Of a DNA stretch of 39,931 nucleotides, positions 2,285-35,547 are shown in pieces. Position 1 is the stretch's first letter, and the number at the start of each line of letters is the position of its first letter. The DNA comes from Candidatus Epulonipiscium sp. GTDB lineage: Bacteria > Bacillota > Clostridia > Lachnospirales > Defluviitaleaceae. The translations under genes and the position numbers were made by a program. The notes beneath the pieces were generated by a model. The model had not been told where the DNA came from and made no database searches. It was given only the letters and a program-made list of their open reading frames with translations. Where the stretch lies: NCBI GenBank assembly GCA_012518815.1, contig JAAYRK010000009.1, forward strand, positions 1 to 39,931, read 5' to 3'.

Positions 2285-4804
2285 GTGAAAAGTATGGAAA
2301 AAAAACAATTTGAAATAAGCGGAATGACTTGTGCTGCTTGTGCCAGAGCAGTTGAGAGAACTGTTAACAAGTTAGACGGTATCATAGAAGCTGATGTAAA
2401 CTTGGCTTCTGAAAGACTAAATGTTAAATATGATGAAAACAAACTTAATATAGAAGAAATAATTCAAGCTGTAGAAAACTCAGGTTATGGGGCAGAAGAA
2501 TATATAGAAAATAAAAAAAGAGATGATAAAGATAAAGAAATAAAATCATTAAGAAATAAACTTATTTTCTCTGCTATTTTTGTAATTCCTTTATTTTATA
2601 TTTCTATGGGACATATGATTGGTGCTCCTTTACCTTCATTTTTATTAGGTCATGAAAATGCCTTAAATTTTGCTTTAATTCAATTAGTCCTTACAGTACC
2701 TATAGTAATAGCAGGATATAAGTTTTATACAGTAGGATTTAGGACTTTATTTAAAGCTTCTCCTAATATGGATTCTCTTATAGCATTAGGAACTGGAGCA
2801 GCAATTGTTTATGGTCTGTTTGCCATTTATAAAATTATTACAGGAACTCCTGATGAAGTGATAGCTTATTCTATGGACTTATATTTTGAATCTGCTGGTG
2901 TTATCATTACCTTGATACTACTAGGAAGATATTTTGAAGCTTTAGCTAAAGGTAGGACTTCTGAAGCTATTAAAAAGCTTATGGGCCTTGCACCAAAGAC
3001 TGCTATAATTATAAAAGAAGGAAAAGAAATAGAAATTCCTATTGAGGAAGTAAAAGTTGGAGATATTATAGTTGTAAAACCTGGACAAAAAATACCTGTA
3101 GACGGGGAAGTTGTTAAAGGTAATACTGCTGTAGATGAATCCATGTTAACAGGCGAAAGTATTCCAGTAGAGAAAAAAGTAGGTGACCAAGTTGTAGGTG
3201 CAAGTATAAATAAAACTGGATCTATTCAATTTAAAGCAACTAAAGTAGGTAAAGATACGGTTTTAGCTCAAATTGTAAAACTAGTAGAAGAAGCTCAAGG
3301 CTCAAAAGCTCCTATTGCTAAAATGGCTGATATTATTAGTAGTTATTTTGTTCCTATTGTTTTAGTCATAGCCTTTGCTTCGGGTGTATTGTGGTATATT
3401 TCAGGAGAATCTTTAGTGTTTTCTATGACTATGCTTATTTCTGTATTGGTTATTGCTTGTCCTTGTGCTTTAGGCTTAGCAACGCCTACAGCTATTATGG
3501 TTGGTACAGGAAAGGGAGCCGAATATGGAGTTTTAATTAAAAGTGGTACGGCTCTTGAAAGCTCTCATAAGGTAAATACCATTGTGTTTGATAAAACAGG
3601 AACAATTACCCAGGGAAGACCAGAGCTTACAGATATAATTTGTTATAATGATATGTCAGAAGACGAACTTTTGATTTTGGCAGCTTCAGCAGAAAGAGCT
3701 TCGGAACATCCCTTAGGAGAAGCTATTGTAAGAAAAGCTCAAGAAAAAAACCTTTCTTTTTTGGAACTTGAAGAATTTAATGCTATTCCTGGATATGGTA
3801 TTGAAGTAAAAATAAAAGGACAAGATTTAGTCTTAGGTAATAAGAAACTAATGCTTAAAAGAAAAATTGATATTAACGAAGCAGAAGAAATAGCAGATCA
3901 GCTAGCCCTAGAAGGAAAAACACCAATGTATATTTCTGATAATAATAGCTTGCTTGGTATTATTGCTGTAGCAGATGTATTAAAGAAAAATAGTATAACG
4001 GCTATTAAAAAACTTCATGATATGGGTATTGAAGTAGTTATGCTTACAGGTGATAATAAAAGAACTGCTCAAGCAATTGCAAAACAAGTAGGAATAGATA
4101 GAGTTATTGCAGAGGTATTACCTCAGGATAAGGCCAATGAAATTAAAAAGATTCAAGATGAAGGCAAAAAAGTTGCTATGGTTGGAGATGGCATAAATGA
4201 TGCTCCTGCTTTGGCAATGGCAGATGTAGGTATTGCCATTGGTTCTGGAACAGATGTTGCAATGGAATCTGCGGATATAGTGCTGATGAAAAGTGATATT
4301 TTAGATGTTGTAACAGCCCTTAAGTTGAGTAAAAGTACTATTAGAAATATTAAGCAAAATCTTTTCTGGGCATTTTTTTATAATACTTTAGGTATACCTT
4401 TAGCTGCAGGTGTTTTTTATATTTTTGGAGGACCTAAATTAAATCCTATGTTTGCAGCAGCAGCCATGAGTTTTAGCTCCGTATCCGTTGTATTAAATGC
4501 TCTTCGATTAAAAGGCTTTAAGCCAGATTATAATATAGATAAAGAAGAAATAATTAATAAAGAAACAAAAAAAGAGGGTGATATCATGAGGAAAAAATTA
4601 TATATAGAAGGTATGAGTTGTAATCACTGTGTCAATCATGTTAATAAAGCTTTAAGTGGCATAGCAGGGGTTAAATCTGTTAATGTTGATCTTGATAATA
4701 AATATGCTTTAGTTGACATGGAAGATGAAATTTCTGATGAGCTATTAAAAAATGCTGTTGTTGATGAAGCAGGATATGAGCTTATAAAGATTGAAATAGT
4801 ATAA
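2285..4804 (+). CDS. copA: Cu(I)-exporting P1B-type ATPase with C-terminal CopZ-like domain
   Basis: Membrane copper exporter. Order of parts: N-terminal heavy-metal domain with GMTCAAC (13-19); membrane helices; actuator TGES (289-292); the CPC ion-site motif (392-394) in helix 6; phosphorylation motif DKTGT (Asp436); a SEHPLGEA nucleotide-site motif; GDGINDAP (634-641); then YN in helix 7 and a Met...Ser helix 8, the Cu(I) signature. After a linker, residues 768-839 form a second heavy-metal domain with GMSCNHC that looks like a complete CopZ chaperone. That segment has its own Met and an upstream GAGGGTGAT. The GTG start at 2285 has GGGG only four bases upstream; the ATG at 2294 is an alternative. 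Confidence 0.95.
4586..4804 (+). CDS. copZ: Possible internally initiated free CopZ (72 aa), in frame with copA
   Basis: This is the last part of the copA reading frame, not a separate ORF. ATG at 4586 is preceded by GAGGGTGAT (4574-4582), a good ribosome site unlike ordinary coding sequence. From there the product would be 72 residues, the normal size of the Cu(I) chaperone CopZ, with GMSCNHC near the N terminus. Either copA and copZ fused after loss of a stop, or both a fusion and a free chaperone are made. Which occurs cannot be decided from sequence. Confidence 0.4.
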
Positions 4805-20778: not shown

Positions 20779-23689
<2,911 letters not shown>

Positions 23690-23787: not shown

Positions 23788-23887
23788 TTACAGGCAATAA
23801 AAATACTTCCAAGCAGATCATCTAATTACAGTCTGTTTTGGAAGTATGTTCAGGAAAGTTATCTTATTCAGGCATTTGTAATATTTT

Positions 23888-24636
23888 TTACTCTTGAGCT
23901 AATACATCAAAATGATAATAATCACACTCCAAAGTGAAGCCACACATACGGTTATCATCAAAATCAATAGAGAGCTCATATTTTTCATCTTCTGTTTTAT
24001 AACTGAATGATTTTATTTTATCACCCAGGCAGTTGCATTATATGGTTTTCCATATGCATTAAGGACTTCTTCCGGGCTGGCACCAAAAGTGATTCCTTTT
24101 GGTAAAATAATATCAACGTAGTTATCTTCATCATAGATCGTGCGCATGTAAACTTCACAAACCCAAGCCTTATCAAGACTGACAGGAGGTGATGAATAAT
24201 ACGGATTAAAAACATCAACCATAATATTAGCACCTTTTCCATTATTACTAAGAAAATAAAAATCGATTTGCTCTTCATACTGTACTTCAGTTGGAGGGTC
24301 ATAAAGGTAGCTATGTACTATATCTTCGATTTCTGTCCACTTAAAAGGTAATGTAAATTTTTTGCCATCAATTTTAATTTCAAAGGTATCTATTGCGAGA
24401 TATGAGTCGGGATCTTCTAAAAGAGCCTCTATATCTTCCACTTGTACTTCAGAAAGTTCATCGTTTGCATTGACCGAATTGTTTTTGGAAAGATCATCAT
24501 TAGTATTTACTTGATTGGTTTCGGAATTGTTATCAGAATTTGATGTCTGATTGGTTTCCTTTTTACTGCAGGCAGTAAAAGCAATTGTCAAAATGACAAT
24601 GATTAATAAATAAATGAACGCGTGTTTCTTTTTCGT
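23888..24636 (-). pseudogene. Decayed lipoprotein gene (start codon ACG, 3' frameshift)
   Basis: Read on the minus strand, AGGAGG is followed at 24636 by ACG instead of ATG, then codons for KKKHAFIYLL, a hydrophobic stretch and FTACSKK: a complete lipoprotein signal with lipobox Cys. The frame stops at 24013 right after NATAWVIK. In the -1 frame, coding-like sequence continues from GGT GAT at about 24024 to a stop at 23888 (GDKIKSFSYKTEDEKYEL, then a segment with FDDNRMCGFTLE). Adding one G to the GGG run at this point restores one reading frame. Two independent lesions suggest a pseudogene, though ACG initiation or a sequencing error is possible. The family resembles Clostridial lipoproteins with a KFTLPFKWTEIED segment. 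Confidence 0.65.
24013..24591 (-). CDS. Open part of the lipoprotein gene (hypothetical)
   Basis: This is what an ORF caller would report: a TTG start at 24591 in the middle of the signal peptide, 192 residues, with no ribosome site at that point. After the lipobox FTACSKK comes a low-complexity Asn/Ser/Thr/Asp linker (about 12-45), then a globular domain with FTLPFKWTEIED and GITFGASPEEVLNAYGKPY. It would sit on the outer face of the membrane if secreted. The function is unknown. The start choice is very likely wrong; see the pseudogene entry covering the full span. Confidence 0.5.
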   Translation of the reverse strand: MTIAFTACSKKETNQTSNSDNNSETNQVNTNDDLSKNNSVNANDELSEVQVEDIEALLEDPDSYLAIDTFEIKIDGKKFTLPFKWTEIEDIVHSYLYDPPTEVQYEEQIDFYFLSNNGKGANIMVDVFNPYYSSPPVSLDKAWVCEVYMRTIYDEDNYVDIILPKGITFGASPEEVLNAYGKPYNATAWVIK

Positions 24637-24954
24637 TTTTTATTACCTCCTCTTTTACGTCTATAATTTAATGATCGCTTTTAGTTTTTGAAAGTGATTT
24701 CAAATCATGCATTATAAATCTATCCGGACAATAGAATTGTTTTGATCATTATCCAGAATGCTTACAGTTATTGATGATTCCTCCTTTCATAGAATACATA
24801 TAGAAACATTTTAATCATGTTGAGTAGTAAATCAAGAAAAAAGATACAATTTAGAAACAATTCAATATTAATTGCAAGCTATTTACTTATTTTTATTGCA
24901 CAATTTATTACTTTATGCTAATATGTTAATGTCAAGAATTTAGGAGGGGTACAA
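24637..24954. other. Intergenic region before secG
   Basis: About 318 bases between the lipoprotein remnant and secG. A good ribosome-site-like GAAAGGAGGAATC occurs on the minus strand near 24778-24790. It is followed by about 20 open codons in one frame (24715-24786) without a start, possibly another gene fragment. The secG promoter is at the right end. I see no riboswitch or RNA gene. Confidence 0.4.
24896..24924 (+). promoter_or_regulatory. Promoter of secG
   Basis: TTGCAC (24896-24901), 17-base spacer, TAATAT (24919-24924), about 30 bases before the ATG. Confidence 0.6.
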
Positions 24955-25197
24955 ATGAATACTCTTACAATTATTATAACGGTGGTTTATGTATTATTAG
25001 CAATAGGACTTATTACAATTGTAATGCTTCAAGAAGGAAAATCAGCAGGTTTAGGAAGCATTACAGGTGGAAGTTCAGAATCTTACTGGGGAAAAAATAA
25101 AGGCTTTTCCTTAGAAGGTCAACTTGAAAGAATTACAAAAATAGGAGCAGGATTATTTATCGTTCTTGCGTTAGTTCTTAATATTTTAATAAAATAA
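24955..25197 (+). CDS. secG: Preprotein translocase subunit SecG
   Basis: An 80-residue membrane protein with two hydrophobic helices (about 3-25 and 58-79) joined by a Gly/Ser-rich loop containing MLQEGKSAGLGSITGG, the SecG hallmark. It assists SecYE during ATP-driven protein export. AGGAGGGG precedes the ATG. Its stop codon lies inside the left arm of the terminator. The order secG-rnr-smpB-ssrA is common in Firmicutes. Confidence 0.95.
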   Translation: MNTLTIIITVVYVLLAIGLITIVMLQEGKSAGLGSITGGSSESYWGKNKGFSLEGQLERITKIGAGLFIVLALVLNILIK

Positions 25198-31098: not shown

Positions 31099-31845
31099 AT
31101 GAGTGGGAACAATGTATTAGAGCAACTTTTTTTGGCAAAAGATTATTTCTTAAAGAGACAGGATTTGTTTGATGATATGGCCAATGCTAAGGCAAAGTAT
31201 GATAATATTGAAAGTTTTCGTAATGGAAGTACTGTCATGCTTTTTTTGTTGTTTGTGGGGTTTGTTATTTATTGCTGGAAGTGTTTTTTGCCTTTTGGTA
31301 GATGGTTTCTAAATGATTCAGAATCTGTAGTAGCTTTCTTTAATAAATTACGTACTATGATGCCACAAATCCTTGTTTTTATATTATGGCTTGTATTAGT
31401 TCCAGTAATTTTTTTAGGATTTTATTTATTAATAATGGTTATAGTATTGATTATTAGTTCAATTATTAAATCTATTATTACAGGACCATCTATTAAAAGA
31501 CAAATTCAAATAATAGATGAAAAGATGGATGAGATAGCTGCATATTATAACCAATATGAGAATGTGATGGGAGAAACGTGTCCAGTACCTCTTGAGCGAT
31601 GTCATCCTTTCCTTATAGAACAGATTATTGGTATGATTTCATCTAAGAGAGCTGAAAGTATTAAAGAGGCAATTAATTTAATTATTCAAGATGAGCATAA
31701 TCAAAAAATTGCTAATCTTGCAGAACAACAATTATTACAACTGGAGCAAGCTAATTATTATCTTAAAGCAATATCAAAAAATACTAAAAAGATTGCAAAT
31801 GATACTTCAGCTATTAAATGGAATACATTTTTTAATAATTTTTAA
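31099..31845 (+). CDS. Unrecognised two-helix membrane protein
   Basis: I do not recognise this 248-residue protein. A charged helical N terminus (1-43) is followed by a hydrophobic segment (about 44-66), a loop, and a long hydrophobic stretch (about 90-127) that could be one or two helices. The remainder is cytoplasmic-type, helical and coiled-coil-like (IKRQIQIIDEKMDEIAAYY and a Gln/Asn-rich C terminus), with a Cys-x(7)-Cys pair in GETCPVPLERCH. GGAGG precedes the ATG and a strong terminator follows, so the gene is real and monocistronic. Nothing nearby indicates a function. Confidence 0.75.
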   Translation: MSGNNVLEQLFLAKDYFLKRQDLFDDMANAKAKYDNIESFRNGSTVMLFLLFVGFVIYCWKCFLPFGRWFLNDSESVVAFFNKLRTMMPQILVFILWLVLVPVIFLGFYLLIMVIVLIISSIIKSIITGPSIKRQIQIIDEKMDEIAAYYNQYENVMGETCPVPLERCHPFLIEQIIGMISSKRAESIKEAINLIIQDEHNQKIANLAEQQLLQLEQANYYLKAISKNTKKIANDTSAIKWNTFFNNF

Positions 31846-32194: not shown

Positions 32195-34654
32195 GTGTTC
32201 AAGAAAAAAATAGTTGTTTTTTGGGTTATCTTTGCAATGTTATTTGCTTTCACAGTTAGTGGAATTGCAGACACAACTTATGCATCTGAATTAGAAGACA
32301 ATCATTTAATTGTAGAAGCTGCTGTTAAACCATCGACAGGAGGAGCTTTAAAGGTTCTTGAAAAAGATGGAGTTATGACCCTTTGTGATGCATCAGGAAA
32401 TCCCATTCAACTGCGTGGAATGAGCACTCATGGATTACAATGGTTCCCTGAAATAATTAATCAAAATGCTTTTGCAGCTCTTGCTAATGATTGGAGTTGT
32501 AATGTAATCCGCCTTGCTATGTATGTAGGCGAAGATGGATATGCAACAAATCCTTCTGTTAAGGATAAAGTTATAGAGGGTATTGATTTGGCTATTGCAA
32601 ATGATATGTATGTTATTGTAGACTGGCATGTACATCAGCCTGGAGATCCAAATGCAGAAATTTATAGCGGTGCTATGGCTTTTTTTGAAGAAATATCTAG
32701 CCTCTATCCTAATCATCCAAATATAATTTATGAATTGGCTAATGAGCCTAATAGTGGAGAACCCGGTGTAACTAATGATGCGGCAGGTTGGCAGGCAGTA
32801 AAATCTTATGCCGAGCCAATTATAGAAATGCTTAGAAATAATGGTAATGAAAACTTAATTATTGTAGGAAGCCCAAACTGGAGTCAGCGTCCTGATTTAG
32901 CAGCTGATGATCCTATAAATGATGATAACGTAATTTATTCTGTTCATTTTTATACTGGTACCCATGAAGCATCAGAAGACAGTTTGGATAGAAATAATGT
33001 AATGAGCAATGCAAGATATGCTCTAGAAAATGGAGTGGCAGTTTTTGCATCTGAATGGGGGACAAGTGAAGCAACAGGACATAATGGGCCTTATTTAGAT
33101 GAAGCAGATGTATGGTTAAGTTTTTTAAATGAAAATAATATTAGTTGGTGTAACTGGTCTTTAACAAATAAAAACGAAACTTCTGGAGCATTTACTCCTT
33201 TTGAATTAGGAAAAACTGAAGCAACAAATCTTGATCCAGGATCAGATCAAGCATGGGATATGGAAGAACTTAGTGTTTCTGGTGAATATGTACGGGCACG
33301 TATAAAAGGTATTCCTTATGAGCCTATTGATAGAACACCTAAAGAAGAATTTACTGAACTAGTTTGGGATTTTAATGATGGAAGCGTACAAGGTTTTGGT
33401 ATAAATGGAGATAGTCCCTTACAAGATGTTGTCCTAACTAATGAAAATAATACCTTAAAGATTTCAAATCTATCTGCAAGTAGCGATGTTTCTGAAGGGA
33501 ATTATTGGGCAAACGTTCGTCTTTCTGCAGATGAAACGAGTGCAAGACCAGATATTTATGGTGCAGAAGTTATTAGTATGGATGTTATTGTAGATAATCC
33601 AGCGACTGTATCTATAGCAGCTATTCCTCAAAGTGCAAGTCATGGTTGGGCAAATCCAATTCGTGCAATTCAAGTTACGGCAGAAGATTTTGTAGCTCAA
33701 GAGGACGGCAAATATAAAGCTAGTTTATCTATATCAAAAGCAGATTCTCCTAATCTGCAAGCTATTGCTTCTGATACAGAAGATAGTATTATGACAAATA
33801 TTATTCTTTTTGTAGGAACAGAAGGCCTCGATGAAATTATGTTAGATAATATTACAGTTACAGGAAACAGAGCAGTTGTTGAAGCACCTATTGTTCACGA
33901 TCCATTAGGTGAACCTAGTTTACCATCTGATTTTGAAGATGGTAGCCGTCAAGGTTGGAATTGGGATCCAGCATCAGGAGTAAAAGGTGAAATGAAGATT
34001 AAAGAAGTTGCTGGTTCTAAGATGCTTAGTTGGGAAGTTGCTTATCCTGAAGTAAAACCAGATGATGGCTGGGCTTCAGCACCAAGAATGATACTGGCAA
34101 ATATTAATACCAATCGAGGTTCTAATGATTATTTGACCTTTGATTTTTATTTAGAGCCCGTTCGTGCTAATGATGGAAGTCTTGCTATTTATCTTGCTTT
34201 TGCTCCTCCAAGCCTTGGATACTGGGCACAAGCATCTAACTCTTTTGATATTAGTTTAAAAAATTTGGAACAGGCTGAAAAAACAGCTGATGACTTATAT
34301 CATTACAAAGTTTCTTTTGATTTAAATGATATAGCGGATAATAAAGTGCTTGAAGCTGATACCTTATTAAGGGATATTACCATTGTAGTAGCAGATGTTG
34401 AAAGTGATTATGCAGGCAGAATGTATATAGATAATATTAAATTTGAATCCAAGGCATCAACTTCTGCTTCATCAGACAGTACAAAGCCTGTTGTACAAGA
34501 AGAGCCTTCAGGAAATTATTACATAGTTCAACCTGGAGATGTGCTTTGGAAAATAGCTGAAAAGTATGGAACAACATTTGAAGAACTAGCAGAGCTTAAT
34601 AAATTAGATAATCCTCATTTAATCGTATCAGGACAAAAGTTAATTCTTCCTTAA
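32195..34654 (+). CDS. Secreted GH5 endo-beta-1,4-glucanase with CBM17, CBM28 and LysM modules
   Basis: An 819-residue secreted enzyme. A signal peptide (about 1-30, ending TTYA) leads to a GH5 catalytic domain (about 50-372) with acid/base Glu184 in ANEP, nucleophile Glu287 in SEWG, and HFY (251-253). Module two (about 387-560) is CBM17-like ([18 protein letters not shown]) and module three (about 578-751) CBM28-like ([20 protein letters not shown]-type end); both bind amorphous cellulose in related enzymes. A Ser/Thr linker precedes a LysM domain (774-819, [18 protein letters not shown]), which should hold the enzyme on peptidoglycan. GH5-CBM17-CBM28 is the order of alkaline endoglucanases from Bacillus. 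GTG start with AAGGAGG. Confidence 0.93.
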
Positions 34655-34818: not shown

Positions 34819-35547
34819 ATGGATTTGTTTGGTAATTACATAATGAGGAACGAAGAGGAAATTATTAAAGAATTGATTGCCAAATTAGCCTGTGATTGTT
34901 CTATTCTTGAGATCAAAGACTTTCAAGAACTTATGTCTAAATATCATCAAGCCTTAGCTGAAGGGAAAAAAGAAGATTATACGCCTCTTTTTATTCTTCC
35001 GCCAAGAGAAGCATTAGGAGATGTAGAACTTAGCAGTGAAGAAAGAAAAGGAATTTTAGAAAAAGCAAAGGATATCGATGCAAAAACATTATTAAATCAG
35101 CTTTATGAAAGAAATATGGTTTTTCATGATATGTCTTTTGAAGAAGTTGATGAATTTGAAGAAAATCAAGAGCAAGAAGAAGGTTTTGCAGGTATAGGAC
35201 TAAATGTTGGAAGGAAAGTTATTTTAGCTAAGATTCCTACAGATAAACCCTGGGAATTGGCTGCATGGATTCCTATGGGTGGTTATAATGAATGTCCTGA
35301 ACCAGAAGAACAAGTTGCCATTTTTAAATATTGGTATGAAAAATATGGAGCTATTCCGGGCTTTGTGAGTCATGATATATGGGAATTTTATGTTGAAAAA
35401 CCACCTAAAAGTCAAGAAGAAGCAGAAGAACTTGCCAGGGAGCAATTTGCTTTTTGTGGGGATATCGTATGGCAAGGTACAGGAACTGTTAAGCAATTAA
35501 CAGGAACCTTGCTTAGTGCACGATATTGGTTTTTCTGGTGGGATTAA
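34819..35547 (+). CDS. DUF4253 domain protein
   Basis: A 242-residue soluble acidic protein. The C-terminal part carries the DUF4253 pattern: WIPMGGYNECP, IFKYWYEKYGAIP, EFYVEKPP, EEAEELAREQFAFCGDIV and the terminal SARYWFFWWD. The N-terminal third is helical and charged, with no family I recognise. DUF4253 proteins occur widely, sometimes among polymorphic-toxin immunity genes, but their function is unknown and no toxin is adjacent. AAGGAGGTCC gives a strong ribosome site. The same frame stays open, with coding-like sequence, for 29 codons after its stop. Confidence 0.85.
   Translation: MDLFGNYIMRNEEEIIKELIAKLACDCSILEIKDFQELMSKYHQALAEGKKEDYTPLFILPPREALGDVELSSEERKGILEKAKDIDAKTLLNQLYERNMVFHDMSFEEVDEFEENQEQEEGFAGIGLNVGRKVILAKIPTDKPWELAAWIPMGGYNECPEPEEQVAIFKYWYEKYGAIPGFVSHDIWEFYVEKPPKSQEEAEELAREQFAFCGDIVWQGTGTVKQLTGTLLSARYWFFWWD

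Follow-up and report, generated by a model that had tools for sequence, protein, structure and literature searches.

In the window, a 39,931-nucleotide stretch of Candidatus Epulonipiscium sp. DNA analysed here at its full length, the locus under study lies on the minus strand of the gap between eno (22367-23689, plus strand) and secG (24955-25197, plus strand), as read from the sequence. A Shine-Dalgarno site, AGGAGG (24651-24646, minus strand), is separated on the minus strand by a 9-nt spacer from an ACG codon (24636-24634). The sequence after this codon (KKKHAFIYLLIIVILTIAFTAC) encodes a charged N-terminal segment, then a hydrophobic stretch, and lastly a lipobox cysteine with its codon at 24570-24568; read by eye, the segment 24568..24633 (minus strand) is a lipoprotein signal peptide ending in the lipobox ...AFTAC. 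The preliminary description of this DNA had placed such a signal peptide in frame behind AGGAGG with ACG at 24634-24636 as its first codon, and its coordinates are right. Because TAA TAA AAA stands in frame immediately upstream of the ACG, the signal peptide is preceded by no ATG, GTG or TTG, and the ACG is the sole candidate start at the Shine-Dalgarno site. Past the signal peptide, this frame (frame 0) encodes a polar linker and, according to domain profile matches, approximately the first three quarters of a lipoprotein domain (24013..24567, minus strand), and stops at a TAA (24015-24013) for a product of 207 residues. Elsewhere in the window, the gene at 32195-34654 encodes a secreted protein that resembles a family-5 glycoside hydrolase in sequence and has a C-terminal LysM-type domain. 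At 2285-4804, a copper P-type ATPase carries a CopZ-like metal-binding domain fused in frame at its C terminus, and the bases ahead of an internal ATG (AAAGAGGGTGATATCATG) resemble a former Shine-Dalgarno site and the start of a separate copZ.

An orthologue was found in a sister species (G001; L002 1489-1836, minus strand), likewise between eno and secG. It shares with the window gene its place, orientation, promoter-like site, Shine-Dalgarno site, lipobox, linker and the beginning of the domain, with 46% identity to the window protein over 113 residues, but it has an ATG start and is broken by a 3' deletion leaving 115 codons. By eye, the lipobox region reads KKK...LTIAFTAC in the window and ...CFTGC in G001, both in keeping with the lipobox pattern of bacterial lipoproteins. 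The ATG of the orthologue aligns base for base with the ACG of the window (AAAATGAAAAAGA versus AAAACGAAAAAGA) and also stands behind AGGAGG. The preliminary description had proposed looking for an ATG in homologues, and the sole orthologue found has one at the aligned position; ACG as a start is thus not conserved among orthologues (n = 1 found, with ATG). Since this ATG lies behind the same Shine-Dalgarno site, the ACG most likely marks the loss of a start codon. ACG start codons are rare and the one orthologue has ATG, so the direction of change would be from ATG to ACG, and the simplest reading would be a single start-codon substitution on the window's lineage.

The earliest in-frame ATG, GTG or TTG is a TTG at 24591, 7 residues ahead of the lipobox cysteine. 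As the first such codon of the frame it could be taken as the start, with the short ORF 24591-24013 as the gene, yet this reading is very improbable: the TTG has no preceding Shine-Dalgarno site, and the orthologue has its start further upstream, at the ATG that follows AGGAGG and aligns with the ACG. The earlier remark that a TTG start would cut the signal peptide is borne out, as the codon sits within its hydrophobic part. The TTG start was rejected for the missing Shine-Dalgarno site and its place inside the signal peptide, and the short ORF was rejected as a complete protein because it cuts the domain at about position 118 of 158.

How well an ACG might serve as a start can be gauged from an E. 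coli reporter library, in which ACG falls in the class of 0.1-1.5% relative to ATG, along with TTT, GTT and TAA (PMC6925171). The same study describes functioning pathway strains with ACG starts and unexpectedly high values for some other odd codons, so that ACG is not strictly null and the library is noisy (PMC6925171). Weak initiation at the ACG may occur at the locus, but its product would be no more than a truncated domain. A literature search for start-codon-loss pseudogenes gave no match with a narrow query requiring every term.

The domain is about 160 residues long and is scattered through Clostridia. Frame 0 matches an 11-segment profile (from nine loci) over positions 2-117 of 161, and profile A2 (seven segments from seven loci) with an E-value of 3.9e-16 over positions 2-118 of 158; L034, L036 and L037 were left out because they looked unrelated by eye. 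The segments stem from an order-wide search, which gave matches in 14 of 392 genomes at E <= 0.01, the own genome and G001 included. With A2, the class-wide search reached 38 of 391 genomes at E <= 0.001, a count that takes in the window's genome and one of those from which the profile was built, and some of the matches cover the C-terminal third only. A 35-segment profile was then made of matches beginning by position 15 and reaching 112, with the duplicate L003/L046 merged; its segments all come from genomes other than the window's. In a number of proteins (L046-L064 and others) the domain occurs in two copies.

Among the 28 open frames listed (27 distinct), a lipobox lies close to the N terminus in 16, and this suggests that the family acts at the cell surface. 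The single-domain examples L048, L051 and L053, whose open frames measure 229, 211 and 229 residues from stop to stop, begin like the window protein with a hydrophobic segment and a lipobox and share with it the signature ...LPgGItxGsTxEEvlxaYGxP..., but their frame is uninterrupted to the domain end and their similarity to the window protein is remote. Searches of Pfam and NCBIfam returned no match to the domain above the curated cut-off; the truncated G001 protein drew two Pfam models below cut-off (E 0.001 and 0.002), both falling on the signal peptide and linker. In the PDB, seven matches turned up, the best with an E-value of 0.11. Two further proteins of the window, encoded at 31099-31845 (248 aa) and 34819-35547 (242 aa), are without an NCBIfam match at E <= 0.01. 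Weak A2 matches (E 5e-5 to 0.16) fall on a separate protein of about 400-415 residues present in G000-G006, i.e. seven of the eight family genomes, the own one included. The G001 orthologue, which carries too little of the domain, is not among the A2 matches in these eight genomes. A literature query combining Defluviitaleaceae and lipoprotein led, among the matches listed, to studies of gut flora, mostly in connection with blood lipids or disease.

Beyond the stop of frame 0, the -1 frame continues. By eye it is open from 24037 to a TAA at 23890-23888, and it holds the C-terminal 45 codons of the domain (23888..24025, minus strand, including the TAA; residues counted from 24025), as assigned from translation and the domain profile. 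Frames 0 and -1 overlap by 25 nt (24013..24037, minus strand, read from the sequence), and the single-base frameshift falls somewhere within it. In random DNA of the same base composition, a stretch of 45 codons would be open with a probability of about 0.026. Of the 3310 wrong-frame stretches of this length in the genes of the window, 165 are open, and 31 of these equal or exceed the tail in codon-usage score, which is weak support for the tail being coding. Homology lends it strong support: with the 35-segment profile, the score is 60.0 bits for frame 0 alone and 71.7 bits once the -1-frame tail is joined to it (+11.7), a value reached by none of 5000 shuffled tails (mean 61.0, maximum 71.3), and continuation in the other two frames gives 59.2 and 61.2 bits. 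With the 11-segment profile, the score rises from 57.5 to 64.9 bits with the tail, and 17 of 2000 shuffles reach 64.9. The tail scores only when joined to the domain; alone it is not recognised by this profile (2.3 bits, equalled by 112 of 2000 shuffles).

In view of the gain of 11.7 bits, unequalled by shuffled tails, the domain on balance appears to have formerly run on into the -1 frame, with the tail as its original C terminus. This is in line with the earlier proposal that 45 codons of coding sequence continue in the -1 frame, now backed by the open frame to 23888 and the profile gain. The 35-segment profile continues into the tail, and the remote homologues behind it keep one uninterrupted frame across the position of the break; those spanning the break are all remote, and the searches found no intact orthologue. 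Homologues vary in how far the domain extends: of 36 listed matches to the 35-segment profile, 10 stop at or before position 142. The matches of L027, L062 and L063 end at 119-122, near the end of frame 0, with 41-204 further residues in the same frame. Among the homologues searched, including the single orthologue (n = 1, itself without the 3' part), none was seen to stop at this TAA, or to lack the signal peptide through a start at another position.

The preliminary description had put the frameshift at a GGG run near 24024. A single-base indel does split the domain over two frames, but the run (24026-24024) is just one candidate site, because the indel may sit anywhere in the 25-nt overlap 24037-24013. 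The overlap contains no long homopolymer or short tandem repeat, its longest runs being three Gs and four As. The suggestion of a phase-variable contingency gene, switched reversibly through a G tract and combined with ACG initiation, draws on the gene coding for a surface protein and on the short run of Gs beside its frameshift. It did not hold up and is hardly credible, given that the run is of three Gs and not a contingency tract, that this region is absent from the orthologue, leaving no length variation to be seen, and that neither a slippery heptamer nor a downstream stem was found. In the frame-0 codons of 24037-24013, no heptamer of the type X XXY YYZ was seen by eye, and no stimulatory stem lies downstream, the fold of 24012-23940 being less structured than its shuffles (z-score +1.95). 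Programmed -1 frameshifting was rejected on these two grounds.

Upstream of the gene, a scan marked a putative promoter, TTGATT - 16 nt - TAAAAT (24808..24835, minus strand), and a promoter-like site TTGATT - 17 nt - TAAAAT lies at the aligned place in G001 (L002 2056-2028). The scan found six sites in the window, against 8.6 expected from shuffles, and the position common to G001 is what singles this one out. Between promoter and gene lies a leader block of 31 bp, AAAGGAGnnnTCATCAATAACnGTnAGCATT (AAAGGAG + TCATCAATAAC + AGCATT; 24757..24787, minus strand), which is shared with G001 although the non-coding DNA around it is weakly conserved. It occurs in one copy each in G000 and G001 and in none of 55 other genomes at up to three mismatches. 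An Rfam search returned tmRNA only. Downstream, a terminator-like hairpin, ATACTTCCAA...TTGGAAGTAT, is followed by a T run (23798..23847, minus strand; -15.9 kcal/mol, z -3.57); the scan, with its loop limit of 8, left it unflagged. In G001 the hairpin is retained beside the deletion (-21.7 kcal/mol, z -6.96). Transcription is probably intact, since G001 has both the promoter-like and the terminator-like element in the corresponding places.

These retained elements, together with the strong and well-spaced AGGAGG, the 0.1-1.5% class of ACG relative to ATG in the E. coli reporter library and the working strains with ACG starts in that study (PMC6925171), would also suit a gene that is still expressed, with low-rate ACG starts and a functional 207-residue frame-0 or -1-frameshift product. 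We consider this quite unlikely, as the orthologue uses ATG, the frame-0 product is short by about 40 domain positions, the overlap lacks a slippery heptamer by eye, and the downstream RNA folds no better than 198 of 200 shuffles.

The distance from the start codon to the eno stop is 463 bp in G001 compared to 947 bp in the window; roughly 0.48 kb is missing from the 3' part in G001, whereas the start has been kept. Around 25 nt at the deletion resemble coding sequence and terminator alike, so its end cannot be placed to the base. The copy is therefore broken in both genomes of the genus examined, the window's own and G001. Among the 15 loci that a pattern scan with RNase R gave, the closest, at 79-84% identity, bear the names Candidatus Epulonipiscium sp. 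(metagenome-assembled genomes) and Defluviitalea phaphyphila, which would place the window in the family Defluviitaleaceae. A lipoprotein search of 57 genomes at E <= 0.001 matched three, namely the own genome, G001 and, with a remote domain homologue, G034. None of the six other family genomes (G002-G007) matched, and their eno-secG gaps of about 115-195 bp are too short for the gene in all six, the gaps of G004 and G005 being identical. Two named metagenome-assembled genomes, L011 and L012, were left out of this count because their gaps are the same as in family genomes. When genome contigs were scanned with the lipoprotein, no relative came up. In alignments with relatives, the flanking eno, secG and rnr each form a single unbroken segment. 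A further reading is that the ACG is retained as a very weak start behind a strong Shine-Dalgarno site, yielding a trace of truncated lipoprotein, with loss of the domain end favoured and reached independently in both species. This seems quite improbable; if true, the frameshift of the window and the deletion of G001 would both serve to remove the domain end.

Relative to G001, dN/dS is 0.35 over 107 codons, a value from one orthologue that has its first codons misaligned by one and reflects mostly the time before the lesions. For 27 codons of the domain it amounts to 0.18 and for 52 codons of the linker to 0.57, with synonymous sites strongly diverged; the signal peptide was left out, as the first residue of the window protein was aligned to the second of the orthologue. 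The comparison genes gave 0.06 (eno), 0.25 (secG) and 0.11 (part of rnr). These values point to some purifying selection on the protein before the damage.

The main rival explanation is that one or both lesions are consensus errors or a strain mix in the draft assembly, the real gene being intact and encoding the full lipoprotein. This would take no more than one substitution and one indel in a frame that is clean elsewhere and that was formerly under purifying selection, and the window is one whole contig of an incomplete 2.19-Mb draft genome in 117 contigs, 92% complete. Against this, neither lesion lies at a long homopolymer (runs of three G and four A at the indel), the neighbours eno, secG and rnr are unbroken, and two independent errors in a small gene that is also broken in a sister species would be a coincidence. 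An assembly error thus appears unlikely, though it deserves more weight than the other alternatives. Apart from the two lesions, the 207 + 45 codons contain no stop; such a clean frame fits very recent decay, and equally an assembly error or a functional gene.

Taken together, these observations support, with good probability, a pseudogene that is still early in its decay, a recently inactivated gene for a secreted, lipid-anchored protein. The gene would have had a promoter-like site, a strong Shine-Dalgarno site, a lipoprotein signal peptide, a polar linker and one domain. Both lesions would be real mutations, later than the split of the two species: the start change would bring translation down to trace level, and the product, missing the last strands of the domain, would not fold normally. 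That two lesions point to decay had been suggested from the sequence at the outset, and the suggestion gains from the ATG of the orthologue, from the domain continuing past the frame-0 stop and from the different 3' deletion that breaks the orthologue. Bacterial pseudogenes combining start loss and frameshift are a known class, and the window gene resembles them in its start substitution, its single-base indel and the damage to the gene in a relative. The mechanism is most likely an ordinary one, namely a pseudogene of an unnamed clostridial lipoprotein family.

Because the sister species independently lost the 3' part, the gene would be dispensable in the genus. For annotation, an automatic call from the TTG would lead to a short hypothetical protein being reported in place of a broken lipoprotein gene, and the finding otherwise means little beyond annotation; its general point is a domain that is matched by 38 of the 391 genomes searched in the class and is without a Pfam or NCBIfam model above cut-off.
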